A stretch of DNA of 23,725 nt, from IMG/VR virus record IMGVR_UViG_3300027971_000219, positions 1-23,725 of that record; one strand, given 5' to 3'. Positions 1 through 23,148 of this stretch are shown piece after piece (within the stretch, counting starts at the first letter, position 1; each line of letters begins with the position of its first letter). Origin of the DNA: a virus. The translations under genes were made by a program, and so were the position numbers. A model generated the notes under the pieces. It saw only the letters and a list, made by a program, of their open reading frames with translations, searched no databases and was not told the origin of the DNA.

Positions 1-137
1 TCACGCAGTATCTCGCGCTGCCATTTGCGCGGCCCGCTGAACTTAGCTAACGGTGTGTTGGGTTGGCCCCAAGGAAACGCAAACAGTACAAACGCTTCAG
101 GATCGTTCGCTATCGCGGGTGACCACAATCGCGTCAT
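1..137 (-). CDS. terL: Terminase large subunit, N-terminal fragment (cut by the left window edge)
   Basis: TerL is the ATPase-nuclease motor that packages DNA into the prohead. Only the first 45 or so codons are here, because the gene runs off the left edge. Translating leftward from the ATG at 137 gives MTRLWSPAIANDPEAF, then VLFAFPWGQ and FSGPRKWQREIL. The pattern of a short lead, DP.AFVLFAFPWG and GPRKWQREIL is the usual start of this TerL family, just ahead of the ATPase domain. The Walker motifs lie outside the window. The start falls inside the end of the small subunit gene, overlapping it by 41 bases in another frame, so translation is probably coupled. A weak GAAGAG lies upstream of the ATG. 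Identity rests on motif recognition by eye plus the neighbouring terS; the exact start is less sure than the family. Confidence 0.85.
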   Translation of the reverse strand, partial: MTRLWSPAIANDPEAFVLFAFPWGQPNTPLAKFSGPRKWQREILR

Positions 138-558
138 CAATGTCTGCTCTTCGGCTGATGTATAGATCGTTTTTTGCATTCTCTAGCACTCTGGTTTGCG
201 CGGCTTCTAGCGCCTGTGTGATGCTGATCCGTTGATACACATCAACACTAACTTCTTGCTTGGCAGTCCACTCGTGACGATGACGCAGGATCTCTAACGC
301 GGCCTTGGCGTCGCCACCTAACGCCGCGCTATTAAGAACCTGCGAGATCTCTCTTTCATTGTCAGCGCGGCCTTTTTGTTCAGCCATTTCCGCTAACGGA
401 TCTAGCTGACACAGTTGCCGGTACTCAGCGGGCAGCATACCAGCCGCCAGCGCCAGCGAGTCACCTTTCAGACCTAACTTTGCCGCGTCGTAGATTGACT
501 GAAGACGCGCCTCTGTTGCCTGAACATTTCTGACAGTTAGTGGCAAAGATTTGAACAT
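97..558 (-). CDS. terS: Probable terminase small subunit
   Basis: A 153-residue protein directly upstream of terL, where TerS is normally found. TerS recognises the packaging site and loads TerL on the DNA. Residues about 20-55 (AAKLGLKGDSLALAAGM, then AEYRQL) look like a helix-turn-helix region, followed by DPLAEMAEQKGRADNE and a helical, charged C-terminus. This order resembles the small protein found next to terL in many phages, but the family is poorly conserved, so the call leans on context. No clear Shine-Dalgarno sequence precedes the ATG at 558; the upstream sequence is a run of A and T, so the start could be slightly different or the leader very short. It is the first leftward gene after the control region and diverges from the plus-strand small genes. 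Confidence 0.72.
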   Translation of the reverse strand: MFKSLPLTVRNVQATEARLQSIYDAAKLGLKGDSLALAAGMLPAEYRQLCQLDPLAEMAEQKGRADNEREISQVLNSAALGGDAKAALEILRHRHEWTAKQEVSVDVYQRISITQALEAAQTRVLENAKNDLYISRRADIDDAIVVTRDSERS

Positions 559-663: not shown

Positions 664-823
664 TGTGCCCGCTGTTTGCCATGGGCACAATGGCCGGTGC
701 GCCCCCGGTGTGCACCCGGTGTGCACCCGATGTGCACCCGATGTGCGCTCCCGGTGTGTGCCCGCTGTGCCCGCTGTTGAGCGTCCTAAAAAACCCTTAT
801 AAAACGTAGTAATGTGCCCGGTG
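664..823. repeat. Degenerate array of about 11-bp repeats (GTGTGCACCCG)
   Basis: Two perfect tandem copies of GTGTGCACCCG lie at 708-718 and 719-729, then ATGTGCACCCG at 730-740. Diverged units follow at 741-753, 754-764 and 765-776. Related TGTGCCCG units lie apart at 664-674 and 813-823. The three central units each contain the palindrome GTGCAC. The 11-bp period puts copies on nearly one face of the helix, which suits cooperative binding of an initiator or regulator (inference). Confidence 0.75.
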
Positions 824-1121: not shown

Positions 1122-1150
1122 TTGACACACACGGCCGAACGTGCGAATAT
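1122..1150 (+). promoter_or_regulatory. Candidate sigma70-type promoter for the rightward small-gene operon
   Basis: A perfect -35 TTGACA at 1122-1127 is followed after 17 bases by GAATAT (1145-1150), a weak -10 with 3 of 6 matches. A start near 1157 would leave a leader of about 47 bases before the ATG at 1204. Direct repeats CGTGCGAA at 1109-1116 and 1140-1147 flank the -35 and overlap the -10, as expected for a regulated promoter with a poor -10. The position is well supported; the -10 is not certain. Confidence 0.5.
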
Positions 1151-1203: not shown

Positions 1204-1518
1204 ATGGAAGTCACGACGAAAATGAAAAACGGCGATCCGATCGCCACGTTCAAAGCGCACGCGTTGATCGTGATCGCGGGCACGGAAACGCACAAGCTCG
1301 CGTTGCATAAGGACGGATTTGGCGCATGGAAGGTAACGCACCCTGAATCGGGCGCTTGCGTGGCGCACGTGCGCGGTCAATACAAGGGTGCGCTTGTGTC
1401 GTCTAAAGGATTCACTCTTAAAGAAGCGCGCGCGGCCGCACAAGCGCAAGTTGACGCGTTGATCGAATCCATCGGATCGGCAAAATTTAACGCTGTACTT
1501 GCCGGGGCCGCAAAATGA
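1204..1518 (+). CDS. Small hypothetical phage protein, 104 residues
   Basis: I do not recognise this protein. The ATG at 1204 is preferred over an in-frame ATG at 1141 because GGAG lies 8 bases before it and because 1141 would fall inside the promoter. The product is basic and soluble, starting MEVTTKMKNGDPIATF, with a likely beta-rich first half (ALIVIAGTETHKLALH, GAWKVTHPESG) and a helical second half (LKEARAAAQAQVDALIES). It has no signal peptide or membrane segment. It is first in the rightward operon and its last bases overlap the next gene by 4 (ATGA), so expression of the two is coupled. It may be an early accessory or host-takeover protein, judged by position alone. Confidence 0.75.
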   Translation: MEVTTKMKNGDPIATFKAHALIVIAGTETHKLALHKDGFGAWKVTHPESGACVAHVRGQYKGALVSSKGFTLKEARAAAQAQVDALIESIGSAKFNAVLAGAAK

Positions 1519-2192
1519 TCCACTTTGTCGCAAAATCATCCAACACGAAAACCGGGCCGATCCCGATCACTTACAGTGCGCGCGATACGTGCCCCGCTAG
1601 TTGCGGGCAGATGAAAGCTTGTTACGCTGACGCGGGTTTTCACACTCGTTTGAATTGGGACAAGGTCCCGACGCGCGGAAAAGATATCGCCACGGTCGCG
1701 GACAAAATTCGCGCGTTGAAACCCGCGACGCTATGGCGGTTTAACGTCGCGGGCGATCTTCCGGGCATCGGTGAGGATATTGACGGCCCCGCGTTTGCGC
1801 AGCTAATCGAAGCGAATCGCGGCCGTCGCGGGTTTACGTACACTCATAAACACTCCGATCGCGCGATTAAATTCGCGCGCTACGCGACCAAGCGCGGGTT
1901 TACGGTCAATCTATCGGCCGATGACGCGGGCCATGCTGACAAGCTTGCGGAGACGGGTTTACCCGTCGCGGTCGTCGTTCCACTTGGCACGCCCGAACGT
2001 ACCACCACCCCAGCGGGCCGCGCTATCGTCGTGTGTCCGGCTCAAACCCGCGACGACGTTACGTGCTACACGTGCGGATTGTGCGCCCGCGCTAATCGCA
2101 AGGTTATCGTCGGGTTTCTTGCGCACGGCACGCGCGCCAAAACGGCCGATGCTATCGCGCGTCGGGTTATTCCACTTAAGGTGACCAAGTGA
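1515..2192 (+). CDS. Cysteine-rich phage protein, possible metal or Fe-S enzyme
   Basis: A 225-residue protein of a type often seen, unnamed, in tailed phages; I believe databases class it as a domain of unknown function (DUF7227-like), but this is from memory. It has two cysteine clusters: C26-x3-C30-x5-C36 (CPASCGQMKACYA) and C174-x9-C184-x2-C187-x2-C190 (CPAQTRDDVTCYTCGLC). Between them are WRFNVAGDLPG at about 74-84 and FTYTHKH near 107-113, then alternating strands and helices (VNLSADD, VAVVVPLG). The CxxxCxxxxxCYA cluster recalls the phage Gp37/Gp68 group (DUF5131), whose members resemble radical-SAM enzymes. A cluster-binding barrel fold is therefore plausible, but the substrate is unknown. 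It overlaps its neighbours by 4 bases on both sides (ATGA, GTGA). Confidence 0.85.
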   Translation: MIHFVAKSSNTKTGPIPITYSARDTCPASCGQMKACYADAGFHTRLNWDKVPTRGKDIATVADKIRALKPATLWRFNVAGDLPGIGEDIDGPAFAQLIEANRGRRGFTYTHKHSDRAIKFARYATKRGFTVNLSADDAGHADKLAETGLPVAVVVPLGTPERTTTPAGRAIVVCPAQTRDDVTCYTCGLCARANRKVIVGFLAHGTRAKTADAIARRVIPLKVTK

Positions 2193-2546: not shown

Positions 2547-4799
2547 TCATTGCGGGTTCGGTTGATAGTCCGGTTCTACCATCCGACGCAGCGTAGACGC
2601 GCCCACGGCCGCAAGATCGGGCGCGCAATATACGTGGCGCTTCGATTCAAGCCCACGCGCGGCAACGCGGCCGCAATCGATCCACCCTGCCTCTTTGATC
2701 GCTTGCAATAACGCTTGTTGATACAGCTTCAAACCAGCGGGCGCGCTACGCGCGAGATCGTCAAGTACAGCTTGCAATGGTGCAGCGATAACCCCCCGCG
2801 TGAATATCCCGCGTCGCCCGCGCATTAATTCAAGGATATAAGACTCTGCGCCTGACAGCGAGTTTTCCGTCATCGTTTGCTTGAATTCCGTCATAGGCGG
2901 GGCCGCGCCCGGATTGAAGCGCGACACGTCGCGCGCGTGCAACCAAGCCGCCACGGCCGCGCGGCCGCCCGTTCTAAGCCATTGCCAGATTGCGGCCCCA
3001 TCGGCGTCTGACATGCGGCCCGCATGCGACCAGATACAGAACCAACGGCGATCTTGCGCGCTGATTGATATAGGCAATAGGTCATTCGAGAATGCCAGCA
3101 CGAACCCACGGTTCGCCATCATATAGGGGTGAAGTCCCTTCCGATTGACCGCCAACACCTCAGGCGGGGCCGCGATAATAGGTTTCAGTTTATTGGCTAG
3201 GACGCGCCTATCGGCCGCAAGGGCTTCCTTTAGCTCGTTAATAACTAGAATCTCAGACTCTAGTTGATAGCCCCATTGCGACGTTAGCGATTCATTGTCG
3301 ACTAACCCTAAATTATGCTTATTGTCCCCGCAGACGGCCCATATAAACGGGTCGTACATCGTATCCTTGCCCGACCCTTCATCGGACGCGTGCAGAATAG
3401 CGTGGTTGATCTTCACGCGCGGGTTCTGCACTTTATAGGCCATAACGTCCCATATATGATCTAGTTCCGACTGTACCGGGACTAGTTTGCGACAATGATC
3501 GATCCACGCTTGTATAGGCCCCGCTATAGGCGTCGGGCGCGCGTCGACCCAACGGTTCGCATAGGGTAGATTGTCCCGCACGGCTAGAACCGACTCGCCC
3601 GCCGCATAGGTTAGGCCCGCGAGGATATGGCCGCCTGCGGCCGTTCGGTTTTCGTCGAACCATAGGGACGGGTTGATAATGCGCGCCTTGCCACCGTTAT
3701 TGTGCAGCGAATGGCACATAATCCCGCGATAGGTCGCGTCAAACGCCCGCCGCGATATAAGGACACGGTCCACTAGGTCGAAGTAGGCGTCATCCGACTG
3801 CACATAAGCGAAACGCTTAAACCAGTCGGCCCGCTCTACCCGCGCCCGCTCGCGCGCCTCGACTTGCGCGATCACGGCCTTGGCGTCATCGGTGAACATC
3901 TCCGTGGGCGTTAGTTTGGACAACGCCCCGCCCATCACGGACGCCAATAACTCATCACGTAAGCCATAGGTCCGCTTGGGGCCGCCTTGCTCTTCAACCC
4001 ACGCTAGAAACCGCGCGGAGTCCCACTCAACGCAATGCGAGTGCAGACAACAATACGCCCGACTTGCGGGCATATAGCGACCCTCTGGGTTACCGTCCGA
4101 ATGTTCCGCGCTATTAGGGCAGATCACGCCCCACCAGCCCGCCGAGTTACCTTTTTGTGTGACTTCTTTACGTTCGACCAGCCACGCTAGAACGTCATCC
4201 GAGCCGTCATCCTTTAGGACGCCCGGACGGAATGTCGTGGTCTCGACTGCGCCGGGGACGACCGATAAAGCGCCGCAGATTTCTTCAAGGCTAAACTCGC
4301 GCGACGGGTTGAACTCAACCAAGCGAGCGGCGAAGCGCCCGCGTCCGGGCTTTAGGTTGATCGAGCCGGGAATACGGATATTGCGAACCGGATTGATAGC
4401 GCCGGGGTCCGTATAGCCCGCTGCCGCTATAGCCTTGATAGCCGCGCTATAGACGGATTTGTGCGGCTGATCGTCTAGCCGGAATACGTAGCACCATTGA
4501 AAGTTATCCTTCGACGTTTCAATAATCCACGTAGGTCTGATCGTCGGCGTTTTCGATTTCGTACCGACGTCATCTAACACCAAACACCACACGTTTTCAC
4601 AGAACGCAGCACCCGCGCTGACCCGCTGACCGTCAAACCGCGATTCGATGAACGAGCCAATATTGACGTACCACGCACCCTCGCCGCGCGGCCTACGCGA
4701 CGCGGGGTAGGCATAGCCGCCATCGCGCTCGACTTGTTTAGTAAATAGTACAACTTCACCCTCTGGTGCGAGGGCTATGATATGATCCACGAGTTCCAT
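2547..4799 (-). CDS. Primase-helicase (AEP/RepB-type primase plus SF3-like helicase)
   Basis: A 750-residue replication protein that should unwind DNA and prime synthesis for the phage polymerase. Residues about 70-160 show primase-type motifs: WCLVLDDVGTK (acidic D76/D77), WIIETSKDNFQWCYVF (91-106) and PVRNIRIPGSINLKPG (137-152). A zinc-ribbon-like cluster follows: C227, H233, C250/C251, H253, C256. The helicase has a Walker A ASDEGSGKDT (471-480), a Walker B ESEILVINEL (514-523), a sensor-like FVLAFSND (566-573) and an RR pair (584-585). The whole resembles DUF5906-type proteins and the NrS-1 phage primase-polymerase. The start at 4799 has AGGAG 5 bases upstream. It is the last gene of the leftward replication block and ends next to the bidirectional terminator. 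Confidence 0.88.
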   Translation of the reverse strand: MELVDHIIALAPEGEVVLFTKQVERDGGYAYPASRRPRGEGAWYVNIGSFIESRFDGQRVSAGAAFCENVWCLVLDDVGTKSKTPTIRPTWIIETSKDNFQWCYVFRLDDQPHKSVYSAAIKAIAAAGYTDPGAINPVRNIRIPGSINLKPGRGRFAARLVEFNPSREFSLEEICGALSVVPGAVETTTFRPGVLKDDGSDDVLAWLVERKEVTQKGNSAGWWGVICPNSAEHSDGNPEGRYMPASRAYCCLHSHCVEWDSARFLAWVEEQGGPKRTYGLRDELLASVMGGALSKLTPTEMFTDDAKAVIAQVEARERARVERADWFKRFAYVQSDDAYFDLVDRVLISRRAFDATYRGIMCHSLHNNGGKARIINPSLWFDENRTAAGGHILAGLTYAAGESVLAVRDNLPYANRWVDARPTPIAGPIQAWIDHCRKLVPVQSELDHIWDVMAYKVQNPRVKINHAILHASDEGSGKDTMYDPFIWAVCGDNKHNLGLVDNESLTSQWGYQLESEILVINELKEALAADRRVLANKLKPIIAAPPEVLAVNRKGLHPYMMANRGFVLAFSNDLLPISISAQDRRWFCIWSHAGRMSDADGAAIWQWLRTGGRAAVAAWLHARDVSRFNPGAAPPMTEFKQTMTENSLSGAESYILELMRGRRGIFTRGVIAAPLQAVLDDLARSAPAGLKLYQQALLQAIKEAGWIDCGRVAARGLESKRHVYCAPDLAAVGASTLRRMVEPDYQPNPQ

Positions 4800-4914: not shown

Positions 4915-5598
4915 TTAAGAGAACCGCCTTCCCAGCCCTTTGACGCTTGTTAGCTTGGCGTTAGATTCCATATCCAACGCCCGTTGAAACAGCACCGGAT
5001 AAGTCTGCTTTAACTCTGCAATCTCCGGCTTCTTAGATGCCGGACAAAAAAAGCAAGCCGACTTACCCGGACGCGGTAAACCAGCGCGGTCAATCGCTGC
5101 TAAACAATCTGGCCGCGACCACTCCCATTGAACCAACGGATAGTGATATCGGTACTTTTCATCTTCAATCGGGGCCTTCATCCAACGCCGCGTTTCCCCA
5201 AATTCGTATCCGATAAATTTGTCTACTTTGTTACCGTTGCGCCAGACTGCCTTTGCTTGATCGTGGTTGTTAGCGTACTTTTCTTGCGGAGCAATCTTAA
5301 ATTTCTGCGAGCACCCTTTAAAACCGTAAGCCAGAGATGGCAACATCTCCGCTTCTAAACAGTTCTCTTCTAACGTGTGGACGCGCCCGTCACGGCGCAC
5401 TTTTTTTACCACGGTGATAAGCGGCATCCCGTGTTTACGAAGCCACTCCTGCATCCGTTCAATGTGTTCGTAAGTGTGCGGGCGCTCACCGCCCGTATCC
5501 GCAAACAAAATCAAATCAAATGGTTCAAGCCCGCGCTCAACCCACCCGCACAAAATTGCTGTGCTATCCGTCCCGCCGCCAAAAGATAGTATTTTCAT
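4915..5598 (-). CDS. PAPS-reductase-like PP-loop ATPase, possibly truncated by an in-frame TAA
   Basis: A 227-residue member of the phosphoadenosine-phosphosulfate reductase / PP-loop family. Such enzymes activate a substrate with ATP and often handle sulfur; the true substrate of phage members is unknown. The PP-loop is SFGGGTDS (5-12), then ADTGGERP (33-40), KGCSQK (C96), IGYEFGETRRW (129-139) and CFFCP (C182, C185). The start at 5598 overlaps the end of polA (ATGA) and has GAGG 8 bases upstream. The frame ends with GLGRRFS and TAA at 4915-4917, but stays open for 23 more codons to a TGA at 4843-4845, encoding RDYDTTLEEPDVVPCISC and ADGNN. That tail carries a second CxxC matching the usual end of these proteins as I recall them. 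The stop may be a mutation, an assembly error or a readthrough site. Confidence 0.85.
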   Translation of the reverse strand: MKILSFGGGTDSTAILCGWVERGLEPFDLILFADTGGERPHTYEHIERMQEWLRKHGMPLITVVKKVRRDGRVHTLEENCLEAEMLPSLAYGFKGCSQKFKIAPQEKYANNHDQAKAVWRNGNKVDKFIGYEFGETRRWMKAPIEDEKYRYHYPLVQWEWSRPDCLAAIDRAGLPRPGKSACFFCPASKKPEIAELKQTYPVLFQRALDMESNAKLTSVKGLGRRFS

Positions 5599-9817: not shown

Positions 9818-9850
9818 TTGAGAGTACCTGTGTGGTTGGTTGGAGATGTC

Positions 9851-9879
9851 ATCTTGCCCGACCACGATCTGCTTGTCAA
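9851..9879 (-). promoter_or_regulatory. Candidate leftward promoter for the replication block
   Basis: On the minus strand a perfect TTGACA (9879-9874) is followed after 17 bases by CAAGAT (9856-9851), 3 of 6 matches to the -10 consensus. A start near 9844 leaves about 27 bases of leader to the ATG at 9817. Its -35 overlaps that of the rightward promoter. Confidence 0.5.
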
Positions 9880-9901
9880 CAACTTTTTTGCAAGATATGA
9901 T
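9873..9901 (+). promoter_or_regulatory. Strong candidate rightward promoter for the VRR-NUC/helicase block
   Basis: TTGTCA (9873-9878, 5 of 6) and TATGAT (9896-9901, 5 of 6) are separated by exactly 17 bases. The predicted start, about 7 bases after the -10, falls at or next to the ATG at 9908, so the first mRNA would be leaderless or nearly so. Confidence 0.7.
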
Positions 9902-9907
9902 GACGGC

Positions 9908-10189
9908 ATGAAAGAAAGCGAAATCGAGCGCCACTTCGTCTGGACTGTTGAGACGATGGGCGGCAAAACGTACAAGTTCACAAGCCCCGGCGTTCGGGGC
10001 GTGGCTGACCGCGTGGCGTGTCTGCCGGACGGGTCAACGTGGTTTGTGGAACTCAAAACCAAGGGGGGCAAACTCAGCAAACTACAGGAACACTTCGGCG
10101 CAACCATGCGTCAACTTAACCAAAACTACACAGTAATCTGGAACCTAGAAGGGGTAACACAATGGTCCTTAGACCTTACCAAGAAGTAG
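9908..10189 (+). CDS. VRR-NUC domain nuclease
   Basis: A compact 93-residue nuclease of the VRR-NUC family (PD-(D/E)XK fold), common beside phage SNF2 helicases, with likely activity on branched or structured DNA. Motifs: KESEIERHFV at the N-terminus, YKFTSPGVRGVADR (22-35, D34), FVELKTKGG (E48, K50) and Q60 in the following helix. Family members typically begin with a similar M.ESEIE, so the ATG at 9908 is preferred over the longer open frame from 9818, which would cross the promoter. No Shine-Dalgarno sequence precedes it. It overlaps the helicase gene by 28 bases. Confidence 0.88.
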   Translation: MKESEIERHFVWTVETMGGKTYKFTSPGVRGVADRVACLPDGSTWFVELKTKGGKLSKLQEHFGATMRQLNQNYTVIWNLEGVTQWSLDLTKK

Positions 10190-11472
10190 CCGCAGACTTT
10201 CTGTACGGCCAAGATCGCGCGATGATCCTAGCGCCCGTGGGGGCTGGCAAGACGGCGATCACGTTGACCGCGCTGTCGGCGCTGCTCAAAATCAAACGCA
10301 ACGCCTTAGTGCTTGCGCCCAAACGGGTAGCCGAAAGCGTCTGGGCGACCGAGGCCGCAAAGTGGGCGCCAGAGCTAACCGTCGCGGTCGCGGTTGGCAC
10401 ACCAAAGCAACGCCAGAAAGCGTTTGAGTCTGGCGCGCAGGTGGTGGTGACGAACTACGACAACATCCAGTCGATGCCGCACTTGGATTTTGACTGCATC
10501 ATCTTTGACGAACTGACGCGGCTCAAGAACCCATACGGCGCGCGGTTCAAGGCGCTCGCCAAGCTGATAGATAAAATCGAAATCCGGTGGGGCTTGACCG
10601 GATCGTTTACCAGCAACGGGTTGGAAGATGTCTACGGGCAATGCAAGATCATCGACCAGACGCTGCTCGGGCGCTCCAAGGGCGCGTTCTTGCAACAGTA
10701 CTTCATCGCCATAAACCCTGAGTTCGGCCAATGGACGCCGCGCGCCGGTAGTTTGGAACACGTAATGGAACGTATCAAACCGGCTACCTACGTCCTTGAA
10801 CCGGGCGAGTACAGCGACAAGTTACCGCCGCTGCACATCGTTCACGTGGACTGTCAGATGCCGATGGATCACTACAACAAACTTAAAAAAGAGTTTGTTC
10901 TCGATAATATTGTGGCGGTCAACGCTGGCGTGGTGACGGGCAAGCTGCAACAGATGGCGTCGGGGTTCATATACGACACGTATCAGACGCCCGATCTGGT
11001 TATGAAGGGCAAGTTCATCACGCATCAGACGCCGATCTGGTTCTCAAAACATAAGTTTGAGGCGCTGGACGATTTGCTGGCCGAGAACCAACACGCCAAC
11101 ACAATTCTGGTGTACCAGTACCAAGAAGAATTGATGGAACTGCACCGCCGTTACTCCAATCTAGTTACGCTTGACGATGATAACGCCATCGGGCGCTGGA
11201 ACGCCGGTCAGATTGAACTGCTGGCGGTCCACCCTAAGTCTGCTGGTCACGGGCTGAATCTTCAGCACGGCGGCTGCAAGATGGTCTTCGTGTCGCTGCC
11301 GTGGTCGCTGGAACTGTTTGAACAGACGGTCGGACGCCTACACCGCAGCGGCCAGCGCCACGACGTCTGGGTCTACATTATGTCAACTCAGAAGACGATT
11401 GACGAAAAAATTTGGACGGCGCTTCAGGACAAACGCGCCGTGTCTGACATTGCTATGGAGGCGCTCAAGTGA
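10162..11472 (+). CDS. SNF2/SF2-type DNA helicase
   Basis: A 436-residue superfamily 2 ATPase of the SNF2 branch, probably remodelling replication forks or recombination intermediates with the neighbouring VRR-NUC nuclease. Motifs: LRPYQ (Q-like, 3-7), Walker A APVGAGKTA (24-32), LVLAPKRV (Ia, about 49-56), TNYDNI (97-102), motif II IIFDELTRLKN (113-123; DELT in place of DEAH), motif III LTGSFTSN (145-152), motif V HPKSAGHGLNLQ and motif VI QTVGRLHRSGQ (about 388-398). The ATG at 10162 has AAGGGG upstream and lies within the nuclease gene. There is no accessory domain, so it is a minimal core of the kind found in phages. Confidence 0.93.
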   Translation: MVLRPYQEVAADFLYGQDRAMILAPVGAGKTAITLTALSALLKIKRNALVLAPKRVAESVWATEAAKWAPELTVAVAVGTPKQRQKAFESGAQVVVTNYDNIQSMPHLDFDCIIFDELTRLKNPYGARFKALAKLIDKIEIRWGLTGSFTSNGLEDVYGQCKIIDQTLLGRSKGAFLQQYFIAINPEFGQWTPRAGSLEHVMERIKPATYVLEPGEYSDKLPPLHIVHVDCQMPMDHYNKLKKEFVLDNIVAVNAGVVTGKLQQMASGFIYDTYQTPDLVMKGKFITHQTPIWFSKHKFEALDDLLAENQHANTILVYQYQEELMELHRRYSNLVTLDDDNAIGRWNAGQIELLAVHPKSAGHGLNLQHGGCKMVFVSLPWSLELFEQTVGRLHRSGQRHDVWVYIMSTQKTIDEKIWTALQDKRAVSDIAMEALK

Positions 11473-19071: not shown

Positions 19072-19416
19072 TCAATACTCCTTTTCCAGAATCTGCATTA
19101 CGTTTGCAAACTCTGTCATGTTCGCTGGTTGAATCAGCGTGTCATCAATTTCGTTTTCATCTGTACAGTTTGTCGCGTGGATGCAGTACCAAACCGAATC
19201 GGTCAAGGTCTTAACACCGTGATGTTTGTTGGCTTCAATAGTAAAACACGCAGGGGCGTTGACAACCGATGTTTTTCCATCCACTGCGATTTCTACCGAC
19301 CCACTAGCCAAAATCGAAAGATGGTCATACTTGTGGGCGTGTTGAACCAACACATGACCTGCCGGTATGCGCGACTCTTTGGCGTAGACGTTGGGGCCGA
19401 AAAAATGTTGGATCAC
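19072..19416 (-). CDS. Cupin-fold metal-binding protein
   Basis: A 114-residue single-domain cupin. The GTG at 19416 overlaps the fibre gene stop (GTGA) and has GGAGG 5 bases upstream, so translation is coupled to the fibre gene. Motif 1 is HAHKYDHLSIL (H26, H28, H32), followed by ASGSVEIAVDGKTSVV; motif 2 is ANKHHGVKTL (H65/H66). The histidines could hold a metal ion. Small cupins occur next to tail fibre genes in several phages; sugar modification or binding, or a virion part, are possibilities. The reaction cannot be read from the sequence. Confidence 0.82.
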   Translation of the reverse strand: MIQHFFGPNVYAKESRIPAGHVLVQHAHKYDHLSILASGSVEIAVDGKTSVVNAPACFTIEANKHHGVKTLTDSVWYCIHATNCTDENEIDDTLIQPANMTEFANVMQILEKEY

Positions 19417-21257
19417 CCAATCCTCCAGTTCGTACCATCATAGTATACGGGTACGTTATTGCTGCCGCCACCAACAACCGTGCTGGCGAACGTCGTAGCA
19501 TTGGCGTCCGTAACCATTGCGGTCCAACCTTTGACGGGGCTGGCTGGCAACGTAGCAACTGTATATGTTTGAAGTTTTAGCGGTTTTAAAGCGTTGGCAG
19601 ACGCGGCATCAACCTGAAACACTCCAGCCCCACCAATCAAGAAATTTAATTGATTGGTTGCTCTAGCGTATGAGATATAGTTAGTCGGAGAAAAATTGAT
19701 CTGAGGTGTACCGTTGGCAAGCGTCTTGTCACCACCAAGGTTTAGATAGAAGTAATCGTCAACCGCTTGGGTTGGAGCCAGATTCCAGACGTTGCCATTG
19801 GTTGCGCCGCTGGTGTTGTTGGTCAACTGAACGCTGCCGGACATCAACAAGATGCCAGCGGTCGTGTTGTTGATCCCGTACCCGCCGTTACCAATCAGTT
19901 TGCCGCCGCTCACGCGCACGTTGTAGCTGTCAATGTTTGAGTCAACATACAACCCGTCGCTGACCGCGCCGGTAACGTAAGGCATGACAAAATCGTAATC
20001 CACGCCAGACAACACTCGGATCGCCGCGCTCTTTGCGTAGTCAATCTCAACCTGGCCCACTCGACCAATCGCGGGGAAGAACGCCGGAACGGCAGTAATT
20101 GGAGTGGTTGCAACCGACTGAGCGGTTGACACGGTGTAGTTGGTTGAATTAATAAGGCCGGTGATCGTAGTGCCAGCAGTTACGCCAGTACCAGATATGA
20201 CCATGCCAACCACAATCGGACTAGATGGCGCGGTGGCCAGCGTCAAAGTTGTACCGGCGATAGATCCGCTGGTGACTGACTTGTATCCGCCAACCGTGTT
20301 CTGAATGATAAACCCGTAGCTGGATTGTGTGCTGCTGCTACCGCCGCAGACCAGACCCATGTACTTGACGTTCAGGCTGTTGCAGTTGCCGTCCCATTCA
20401 AACCCATAGTAGTCAGGACCGGGGTCAAGCACACAGAAATTGATTGACAAAATGTCCGACCGCTTGGCAGCGTCGCCGTACCACTTGATGCCGGGACCGC
20501 GAATGATACCCCACATCCATTCTAGTTGAACGGTGTTGGCTTGTTCAACATACAACGCGCCAAACGCATCGTACAGATACGCCCGCTCAATTGTCACTCG
20601 ATTGGCGTTGCTGATGTAGATTGCGTAGCCGGTGGTTTGACCGGGCGAGTTAAAGTTGAGAGACAACTTAACGCCGATGCTGCCACCGCCAACGGTGACG
20701 CTATTGATCGCGCCAGAGGTCTTGAGAACGCCGGGGCCACCAACCCATTGGTAGTTGGTCGTGACCGATAGCGCGGTGGTGTGCAGGTAGGTTTTACCAG
20801 CCGCAAGATATACGTCACGCCCGGTATTGATTGCGTTCTGTAGCGCGGTGGTATCGTTGGTTGTACCGTCGCCAACAGCGCCAAAGTCTTCTGGATAGAC
20901 GTAACCCAAACGAAGTTTGGCCTGAACAGTCTCAGTAACTGCGCCCGTGCCAGACTCAACGTAGGTGATATTGGCCGAGCTAGTCAGAACCGAGATGTTG
21001 TCAACGGTCCAGACCTCAACATCGGTAGATGTGGTGAGCTTGAACTTGTACGAAGAAGTGCCAAGCCAGATGCTGCATTCGCCGCGACTGTCTAGAATGA
21101 CCGGATTGGAATTCGCCGTGTTGCCGGTGTAATCGGTGTAGGTCGTAAGCGGCGTGGTAGTTCCGGCTGCGTAGGTGTAAACCTTCCCGCCAGACAACGG
21201 CACACCGTTACTATCTAAAAATTGCAGTTTCGGCTGCGGCGAAATATAAGTTGTCAT
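19413..21257 (-). CDS. Tail fibre/tailspike with beta-helix domain (copy with inserted domain)
   Basis: A 614-residue receptor-binding or depolymerase protein. The ATG at 21257 is chosen because MTTYISPQPKLQFLDSNGVP is the typical start of this fibre family; the longer frame lies over the upstream gene. Residues 1-90 form a virion-attachment-like domain (SGGKVYTYAAGTTTPLTTYT). YPEDFGAVGDGTTNDT (121-136) opens a pectate-lyase-3-like right-handed beta-helix. Residues about 325-393 are an insert (SGSIAGTTLTLA, VGMVISGTGVTAGTTI) absent from the upstream paralogue. The C-terminus (TVATLP...STVVGGG...DGTNWRIG) is a common fibre tip module. The stop overlaps the cupin start. Confidence 0.87.
   Translation of the reverse strand: MTTYISPQPKLQFLDSNGVPLSGGKVYTYAAGTTTPLTTYTDYTGNTANSNPVILDSRGECSIWLGTSSYKFKLTTSTDVEVWTVDNISVLTSSANITYVESGTGAVTETVQAKLRLGYVYPEDFGAVGDGTTNDTTALQNAINTGRDVYLAAGKTYLHTTALSVTTNYQWVGGPGVLKTSGAINSVTVGGGSIGVKLSLNFNSPGQTTGYAIYISNANRVTIERAYLYDAFGALYVEQANTVQLEWMWGIIRGPGIKWYGDAAKRSDILSINFCVLDPGPDYYGFEWDGNCNSLNVKYMGLVCGGSSSTQSSYGFIIQNTVGGYKSVTSGSIAGTTLTLATAPSSPIVVGMVISGTGVTAGTTITGLINSTNYTVSTAQSVATTPITAVPAFFPAIGRVGQVEIDYAKSAAIRVLSGVDYDFVMPYVTGAVSDGLYVDSNIDSYNVRVSGGKLIGNGGYGINNTTAGILLMSGSVQLTNNTSGATNGNVWNLAPTQAVDDYFYLNLGGDKTLANGTPQINFSPTNYISYARATNQLNFLIGGAGVFQVDAASANALKPLKLQTYTVATLPASPVKGWTAMVTDANATTFASTVVGGGSNNVPVYYDGTNWRIG
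20079..20285 (-). other. Inserted domain within the 614-residue fibre
   Basis: The encoded stretch of about 69 residues (SGSIAGTTLTLATAPSS, VGMVISGTGVTAGTTITGL, NYTVSTAQ) sits between two segments that are nearly continuous in the paralogue. Its form, Gly/Thr-rich with GTTLT, VGM.ISGTGV.AGT.I and YTVS.AQ, recalls a module widely seen inserted in phage structural proteins. Confidence 0.65.
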
Positions 21258-21258
21258 A

Positions 21259-23148
21259 TCAGGTTTTCCAACTGGTTCCGTCAAAGAAGACTCGAACAAC
21301 GGAGGTGCCGCCTCCGACAACGGTCGTATTGTACAATGGGGCGAGCGCGTCTGTAACGTAGGCCATCGCTCCCTGAATGCCTGTAGGAAGCGTTGCCACC
21401 GTGTACTGAGGTAAGACAAAGGGCTGAAGCGATTGGGCATAAGTGGGTGTTACCTTAAAGATCCCGTTGCCAGCAATTTGGAAGTTGTAGCTGTTGTTTG
21501 TGCGGTCGTAGGCTAAATAGTCATTCGTATCAAACACCAGATTCGGGTTGGCTCCCGACATCTGCATATAGTACGTCGCGTCAGCGTAAAATCCGGTTCC
21601 AGTTATAAAGTTGCCGCTAAAGTCGCCCGAAGCGTTGCGCTGCACAAGATACAGCGGGGTGTTGGCGCTAGTCGCGTTTACAGTAATGTTTGGCGTTGCG
21701 CCGCCAGAAGAATTAACGGGGCTAGTTGCGGTTACGCTTGTGACGCCGCCACCACCGCTGACGGTCGCCCAAAACAGATTGTTAGATCCGTCTGTGCTGA
21801 GAACTTGGTTGGACGTCCCAATCGCCGTTGGTAGCGTATACGTCACCGACGGACCAGATGCGGCTGGCGAAAAGCCGGTATAGCCAGTCGTTGACCCAAT
21901 CAAACGCAACCCAGTAGCATAAACCGGCACATACGATTGAGTTGCTGCGCCCGAAAACGTAACCGTTCCGCTACCGCCAATCTGAAGGTTTAGCTCGTTA
22001 GCCGTGCGGTTGTACGAAAGAAAATCCGTAGGGGCAAAGACAATCTGAGGCGAATTGCTGCTGGTTGTCAGGTAGAAATCGTCATCAATTGCCTGACGCG
22101 GTGTTTTGTTCCAGACCGAGCCGTTAGTTTCACCCAGACCGTTGGAGTACAACGAAGTGTTACCGCTGTACAGTAATACGCCGCCCAAGTTGTTAATGCC
22201 GTAGCCACCGTTGCCGATAGACTTGCCGCCTGTAATGCGGACTTCGTAAGCGTTGATCGCCGCAGCAATTCGGAACCCGTCTGACGCCGCGCCGAGAACG
22301 TATGGCATCACAAAGTCATAGTCCAGACCGGCTTGAATCTCTACGCCGATGCCGGTGGAGTAATCCACCTCTACCTGACCAATGCGACCGATAGCAGGAA
22401 AGGTTGTCACGCCGCCCGTATTGCGGATGATCATGCCCTTGCCGCCGATGATGCCAAGGTACTTGACCGTCAAACTATGGCAGTTACCGTCCCAGTCCAT
22501 GCCGTAGTAGGTATCGCCCGGATCTACAACAACGGCATTCAGGATCAGCAGGTCAGATCGAGTTGAGTCGTTGCCGTACCATTTGACGCCAGGGCCTGTG
22601 AGCGATGCCCACATAAAGTCCACAACCACCCAGTTGGCCTGTTGTACGTACAAACCACCAAACCCTCTGATGATGTTGAGCTTGTTAATCTTGACGCGGC
22701 TACTGTTGTTGATATAAACAGCCCAACCAGCAGTCTGCGTTGGCGAGTCAAAGGTCAGATCCAACTGAATGCCGGTCACAATTGTGGCCGTTGGTGAGAT
22801 CAGTTCTAGACCGTTGATCGCGCCAGCAATCCGCAAAACCCCAGGCCCACCAAACGACTGGTTAGGCGTGGACATCGTAAGCGTTGTACCAACCGCGTAG
22901 ATGCGTCCGGGCGGCAGGTAAACGTCAAACCCAGAATCTAACGCAGCTTGAATGCTGGCCGAATCGTCAGCCGCACCGTCACCAACCGCACCGTAATCGC
23001 CGGGAGTTACCGCGTTGGCGCTTTGGTTGGTCTTGGTGTATTGGTTGTTGAAAAACCGATACCATTCACGCGAGATCAGCTTGGTTCGTTCGTCTGTTAA
23101 CGGAACCCGCGAGGCCGGAATCGTAGTGATGTTATTGCTAACAGCCAT
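21259..23148 (-). CDS. Tail fibre/tailspike with beta-helix domain (upstream paralogue)
   Basis: A 629-residue fibre. The N-terminus (LTDERTKLISREWYRFFN, about 17-34) resembles the short attachment segment of phage fibres. DYGAVGDGAADDSASI (51-66) opens a pectate-lyase-3-like beta-helix that matches the next gene segment by segment (GPGVLRIAGAIN, KWYGNDSTRSDLL, DYDFVMPYV, NGGYGINN). A Gly/Thr region then follows (GGGGVTSVTATSPVNSSGG), and a C-terminal TVATLP...TTVVGGG...FFDGTSWKT tip. The start ATG overlaps the previous stop (TAATG). It probably binds or degrades a host surface polysaccharide; the active site is not obvious by eye. Confidence 0.87.
   Translation of the reverse strand: MAVSNNITTIPASRVPLTDERTKLISREWYRFFNNQYTKTNQSANAVTPGDYGAVGDGAADDSASIQAALDSGFDVYLPPGRIYAVGTTLTMSTPNQSFGGPGVLRIAGAINGLELISPTATIVTGIQLDLTFDSPTQTAGWAVYINNSSRVKINKLNIIRGFGGLYVQQANWVVVDFMWASLTGPGVKWYGNDSTRSDLLILNAVVVDPGDTYYGMDWDGNCHSLTVKYLGIIGGKGMIIRNTGGVTTFPAIGRIGQVEVDYSTGIGVEIQAGLDYDFVMPYVLGAASDGFRIAAAINAYEVRITGGKSIGNGGYGINNLGGVLLYSGNTSLYSNGLGETNGSVWNKTPRQAIDDDFYLTTSSNSPQIVFAPTDFLSYNRTANELNLQIGGSGTVTFSGAATQSYVPVYATGLRLIGSTTGYTGFSPAASGPSVTYTLPTAIGTSNQVLSTDGSNNLFWATVSGGGGVTSVTATSPVNSSGGATPNITVNATSANTPLYLVQRNASGDFSGNFITGTGFYADATYYMQMSGANPNLVFDTNDYLAYDRTNNSYNFQIAGNGIFKVTPTYAQSLQPFVLPQYTVATLPTGIQGAMAYVTDALAPLYNTTVVGGGTSVVRVFFDGTSWKT

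Follow-up and report, generated by a model that had tools for sequence, protein, structure and literature searches.

The window analysed here, a linear virus record of 23,725 bases, carries near its left end a candidate gene for the terminase small subunit (terS; 97-558, minus strand, 153 amino acids). Its product has no match in Pfam or PHROGs, and the identification rests on gene order in relatives: in locus L022 the next gene after terS encodes the terminase large subunit (phrog_2, E 6e-43) and is followed by the portal gene, and in the GenBank record MW202483 the annotated large terminase gene is the neighbour of terS. The gap between terS and the repeat array, at 570-655, contains a conserved A-rich tract and a GC-rich block with the core GGCCCTACCC, both located outside the variable array. 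Of 68 non-redundant loci, 56 carry GGCCC followed by TACCC, TGG, CCACC or TCACC upstream of terS, and they include members of both array classes described below. This block is a possible candidate for a packaging (cos/pac) or terS-control site, and as a packaging candidate it is better than the array itself. In DNA folding, the GC-rich stretch at 595-660 does not surpass its shuffles (z 0.11).

To the right of the array we identified by eye a putative promoter (TTGACA and GAATAT spaced by 17 nt; 1122-1150, plus strand) that may serve the rightward operon and that is absent from the list returned by a consensus promoter scan. The rightward genes at 1204-2192 (plus strand), a 104-residue ORF and a DUF7227/GP88-like ORF, are accessory and do not occur in all relatives; the small genes in this stretch and in the equivalent interval of relatives are highly variable and are exchanged between array classes. 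The gene for a primase-helicase of 750 residues, which we propose as the initiator, follows on the minus strand at 2547-4799 (DUF5906, E 2.5e-11). The array is thus not directly beside the primase gene but ends about 1.4 kb beyond its stop, with the operon in between. The gap between the primase and polymerase genes is occupied by a PAPS-reductase-like gene (4915-5598, minus strand) that resembles SspD and looks accessory, since it had no match in the 24 close-relative loci tested. Elsewhere in the window, genes for a VRR-NUC-like nuclease and an SNF2-type helicase (9818-11472, plus strand) lie amid the leftward replication genes, and two neighbouring, overlapping large ORFs (19413-21440 and 21259-23148, minus strand) have long stretches that are alike by eye and may stem from the duplication of a tail-fibre or spike gene.

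The original prediction placed an iteron-like array at 664-823, consisting of three tandem 11-bp units and at least five diverged relatives around a palindromic GTGCAC. Both sets of copies were recovered: perfect copies of TGTGCACCCG(G/A) start at 709, 720 and 731 (TGTGCACCCGR, 709-741, plus strand), and diverged ones start at 664, 673, 742, 755/757, 766 and 813. The repeats are real, but their common core is TGT-NNN-C instead of the palindrome, and the array, present where it had been placed, continues beyond 823 up to about 1099. The origin repeat of P4 fits the same core. Tandem Repeats Finder reported 694-770 with a period of 11, 6.8 copies and 77% matches, and 694-777 contains 37 recurring 9-mers (mean 1.34 and maximum 22 in 2000 dinucleotide-preserving shuffles). 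Between 656 and 1110 there are 22 TGTNNNC sites, 14 on the plus and 8 on the minus strand, where about 4.5 are expected; the shuffle means are 3.3 and 1.2, respectively, and none of the 2000 shuffles reached the total of 22. The density is 48.4 sites per kb, as compared to 7.7 per kb over the whole window, and in six contigs the densest 800 bp contains 50-88% of the sites of the genome. An Rfam scan gave no match at the gathering score, and comparison of the DNA of the region with phage records resulted in a sole match of 34 A-rich bases (E 0.3).

The sites form two sets around an AT-rich tract at 961-990, the AT-richest 30-mer of 801-1100 (27 of 30 A/T) and a candidate unwinding element. The left set (664-886) is mostly forward, with plus-strand sites at 664, 673, 709, 720, 731, 742, 755, 757, 766, 813, 860 and 876 and minus-strand exceptions at 683 and 831, i.e. 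12 of 14 sites are forward. The right set (997-1099) is mostly reversed (six of eight sites), with minus-strand sites at 997, 1007, 1046, 1070, 1081 and 1092; the two plus-strand sites, 1045 and 1091, both overlap the near-palindromic TGTGGACA/TGTCCACA. An inverted repeat, GTGTGGACACTT/AAGTGTCCACAC, is also part of the right set. The same orientation is found in relatives, the ratio of forward to reverse sites being 236/14 on the left and 6/70 on the right in class A, and 91/0 and 0/17 in class B. Two iteron sets around an AT-rich region were observed in the window and in classes A, B, K, M and E, and the layout is mixed in class Y (2 loci).

Relatives were obtained by a TerS search (best 80 of 201 related loci, 42 of those 80 with a TerS identity of at least 88%) and by a search with the primase C-terminus (best 80 of 391 loci). 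Absence of the array from close relatives had been named as what would refute the original reading; we found an array at the same site in relatives, although the repeat words differ. In the relatives for which the region upstream of terS was available, the terS-adjacent slot holds dense short repeats whose word changes even at 98-99% TerS identity. In class A, which is window-like, the words are TGTACCC, TGTGCCC, TGTGAGC, TGTTTGC and TGTGCACCC, with a variable triplet (ACC, GCC, GAG, GCA, TTG and others), and in class B they are TGTCAGCAAT and variants; TerS is 97-99% identical to that of the window across both classes, and the arrays are nonetheless different. A second motif finder performed well for most groups and gave a poor consensus in class A and in single-locus groups. 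Farther relatives use TGTGGACA, TGTAGTCA, TGTAGGCA, TGTTGGC, TATTGYCA, ATGGGTCA or GTGGGGTA, and here the words are sorted by the primase end, not by TerS. The array word of MW202483 is TGTTTACAT, with GTTTACA occurring 11 times in the densest 600 bp; in this record (L159, 10009-11707) the dense TGTTTACAT array adjoins an annotated homing endonuclease gene and the terS position. Two loci that belong to class A by array and primase (L011 and L036) still have two or three words of class B close to terS, which looks like a trace of recombination.

The array class follows the C-terminal half of the primase-helicase. The array class was taken from word counts and compared with the class of the primase C-terminal half wherever TerS identity was at least 89% and both regions were available. 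The two were concordant in all 39 such loci (27 in A, counting the window, and 12 in B), a few of which contribute only the last 70-110 primase residues and some of which are near-copies. Primase residues 1-300 exhibit no class structure, the A-B identity of 0.82-1.00 being like that within A, whereas for residues 301-750 the identity is 0.47-0.87 between A and B, 0.75-1.00 within A and 0.91-0.99 within B. The DNA polymerase is not sorted by class either, with 90-98% identity to that of the window in 17 A loci and 94-97% in 7 B loci. Moreover, the two classes have genes of the interval between array and primase in common, with identities reaching 97%; in L006, L009 and L013, for example, one such ORF starts about 600 bp away from terS. 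The pairing of array and primase thus persists despite recombination between them.

The half of the protein that sorts with the array (residues 291-750; 2550-3929, minus strand) comprises the helicase and a predicted winged helix. DUF5906 is present in all 38 members of set A1, the RepB_primase match is below the cut-off, and the primase-helicase of the window has no Toprim match. An AlphaFold model of residues 291-750 (38 sequences) has a pLDDT of 81.3 and superimposes on the C-terminal region of the NrS-1 polymerase (6k9c; Z 22.4, rmsd 6.5 over 349 residues), its closest fold match, and on the SaPI5 primase-helicase (7om0; Z 15.7, rmsd 5.3 over 298 residues), where mostly the helicase is aligned and not the winged helix. 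The predicted winged helix covers approximately residues 650-725 (2625-2852, minus strand), and the C-terminal 118 residues modelled alone adopt a winged-helix topology with a pLDDT of 84.5. The name rests on this topology, as the winged helix alone gave no Foldseek match to solved structures at E 0.001 or better and its structural matches are generic and weak (best VIA, Z 6.2; the P4 alpha domain is absent among the matches listed). The wing segment GRVAARGLESKRH (residues 710-722; 2634-2672, minus strand) includes residues 713 and 718, which in the predicted model are located in the loop joining two wing strands. No free-standing winged helix was found among ORFs shorter than 350 residues, the 25 such ORFs of 324 HMM hits all touching a contig end and ORFs of at least 350 residues being presumed to be primase.

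That the array type tracks the C-terminal half and wing of the primase-helicase, and that the sites are opposed around an AT-rich tract, supports the original suggestion of an origin or initiator-binding array. We consider it likely that the array provides the iterons of the phage's replication origin, which would be opened by the phage's own primase-helicase with the wing reading the variable triplet. GC skew, which had been put forward as a check, gave no consistent signal in six contigs. The original prediction also named a repressor-binding array. An operator of the rightward operon, to which a repressor, an activator or possibly the primase-helicase itself as an autoregulator would bind, would fit the location of the array ahead of the rightward genes and of a promoter-like element; furthermore, co-variation tells the reader of the array and not its purpose. 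However, no rightward ORF family is present in all 39 loci, the widest occurring in 25 of 39 in a count with a 45-residue cut-off and a start-codon rule that very small or unusual genes may escape, and a binder encoded by the rightward operon is therefore disfavoured. In addition, the array co-varies with a helicase initiator, and its sites lie on both sides of the AT-rich tract as they do in iteron origins. We thus regard an array that is an operator and not an origin as improbable, while a dual role as operator and origin, or a separate repressor, may exist.

Next, array similarity, expressed as shared repeated 6-mers, was correlated with protein identity in 68 non-redundant of 113 loci. The correlation was r 0.72 for the wing (13 residues), 0.66 for the helicase, 0.63 for the winged helix without the wing and 0.47 for TerS, and the partial correlation given the helicase was 0.43 for the wing and 0.06 for TerS, in statistics that use related loci, and hence non-independent events, and no phylogenetic model. 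These values bear on a possible role of the array as a packaging site (pac/cos) that TerS would recognise. Although the array adjoins terS in the relatives examined and the conserved GC-rich block next to it resembles a packaging site, the arrays of classes A and B differ at nearly constant TerS, and mean array similarity is 0.025 in the 121 pairs that combine a TerS identity of at least 95% with a helicase identity of less than 80%. The packaging site was rejected because the array type does not follow the TerS type, and we judge a cos/pac recognition region at the array to be very unlikely.

Consistent with an origin read by the primase-helicase, the identity of single wing residues is associated with the repeat word. 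At a helicase identity of at least 0.93 array similarity was 0.521 for pairs with the same residue 713 (n=158) and 0.097 for pairs with a different one (n=24), the two sets being drawn partly from different clades. Given the overall identity of the C-terminal half, the best array predictors among its approximately 350 columns were residues 713 (0.283) and 718 (0.246), followed by 732. We then analysed a cluster of loci whose helicases share 91-100% identity with the L118 helicase (22 loci taken, 18 after array duplicates had been dropped, contigs from the discovery set included). Here array similarity was 0.502 in the 46 pairs with the same residue 713 and 0.023 in the 107 pairs with different ones, at nearly the same helicase identity (0.957 and 0.949, respectively; permutation p 0.0001). 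In this cluster Lys713 goes with TGTGGACA, Met713 with TGTAGTCA, Tyr713 with TGTAGGCA and Ala713 with TATTGYCA (TATTGTCA or TATTGCCA); L175 (K) has no iteron word in the stretch examined and L183 (M) has a weaker word. The K-wing exceptions in the discovery set are L123, L125 and partly L114, and a distant subfamily with RVKATPNG wings uses ATGGGTCA. As the triplet varies within class A, the simple code is best supported outside the class of the window itself.

Wing-to-word rules were fixed before new loci were scored. We fetched 178 new loci, 77 of which were scored and 75 of which had a prediction; the remainder was dropped owing to a gene end already in the set (40), duplication (8), less than 1200 bases downstream (7) or lack of a wing pattern (46). 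With the pre-registered measure 50 of 73 called loci were correct. The word ATTGYC, which is degenerate and favours itself in this measure, makes up 20 of the 23 wrong calls, and it had been predicted for 17 of the 50 correct loci. A denser measure, based on 7-base words in the densest 800 bp and added after the rules but before any result, gave 44 correct of 48 called loci, with 27 uncalled, as compared to about 18 correct expected from shuffled predictions (hand calculation). The misses are L226, L260, L263 and L276. Lys wings with TGTGGAC and A/G-SRE wings with TGTTGGC were each found on an L050-like backbone besides their own.

These predictions also argue against repeats that are mostly microsatellite-like slippage products, hitchhiking with a linked gene module in the absence of specific recognition. 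In relatives, among them L005, L013 and L022, the slot around 694-755 is filled by other low-complexity repeats rich in GC, so that the tandem copies themselves may be slippage, and slippage probably shapes the tandem itself; array and primase are, moreover, near each other. As an account of the whole array, slippage is nevertheless highly improbable, given the success on new loci over shuffled predictions, the sharing of genes across classes inside the module, the strict site orientation and the concentration of sites in the densest 800 bp. Use of the iterons as a preferred priming template is hardly credible: priming by the NrS-1 polymerase depends largely on an 8-nt template sequence, according to excerpts of PMC7102993, and the C-terminal half here resembles that of NrS-1, but the primase half has no class structure while the arrays do, and the same excerpts give only two copies of the recognition sequence and no array for the NrS-1 genome.

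An origin composed of iterons and a cognate primase-helicase has several precedents, which we compare here on the basis of excerpts of the sources cited. The C-terminal domains of SaPI Rep proteins recognise iterons downstream of rep (PMC7581432), and PICI origins consist of an AT-rich region flanked by two iteron sets (PMC6092414). The window shares with both the D5/SF3-type helicase, whose C-terminal part here is a putative DNA-binding one, and short iterons 3' of rep in two sets around an AT-rich region (PMC7581432, PMC6092414). It differs in that an operon separates rep from the array, whereas the SaPI/PICI origin lies immediately 3' of rep, in that it belongs to a phage and not to a satellite, the relative L022 carrying large terminase and portal genes, and in that the iteron word varies between near-identical phages. 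P4 alpha is likewise a primase-helicase, whose winged helix binds the origin repeats (PMC4234260), as the predicted winged helix here may do; its primase is of the Toprim type (PMC4234260), in contrast to the protein of the window with its sub-threshold RepB_primase match only. That the rep-ori module here would work like SaPI/PICI and P4 replicons is, by analogy, the best explanation. In PLE satellites of Vibrio cholerae, RepA is exchanged together with its origin, and a nuclease directed at the origin provides selection for change (PMC8263062). Co-variation of initiator and iterons is seen in both systems and their exchange as a unit would be common to both, but the PLE initiator is of the RepA_N family and its iterons are about 30 bp long and reside in a satellite (PMC8263062), and in the phages studied here no free-standing winged-helix copy was found in ORFs shorter than 350 residues. 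Close geminivirus relatives also often have different Rep-specific iterons (PMC12548392), but their Rep is unrelated and replication is by the rolling-circle mode.

Taken together, we infer the following mode of action. The primase-helicase, with a D5/SF3-like helicase ring and a C-terminal winged helix, would bind the TGTNNNC iterons via the winged helix, with the wing loop reading the variable triplet. The oppositely oriented iteron sets would load helicase rings onto the intervening AT-rich tract, which would melt and then be unwound and primed. Origin specificity could change either by a change in the wing or by exchange of the C-terminal half and the array as a module, and conflict of the kind described for PLE satellites may underlie the diversification. 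Tentatively, and with somewhat less than even confidence, we propose that in these podovirus-like phages wing residue 713, helped by residue 718, selects the triplet of TGT-NNN-C, so that near-identical phages would come to have origins blind to one another; the pressure behind this would perhaps come from co-infecting relatives, satellites or origin-directed nucleases.

We found no report of a wing-iteron correspondence in phages in the open-licence literature searched, part of which was represented by excerpts. Iteron origins with a cognate helicase-initiator are already known from satellites and islands. If our proposal is true, the same principle would operate in free-standing phages, and nature would provide dozens of wing-iteron pairs on nearly constant backbones. 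One could then test directly how the DNA target of a winged helix shifts, by what means phages keep their origins apart from those of near relatives, and whether conflict is the driving force.
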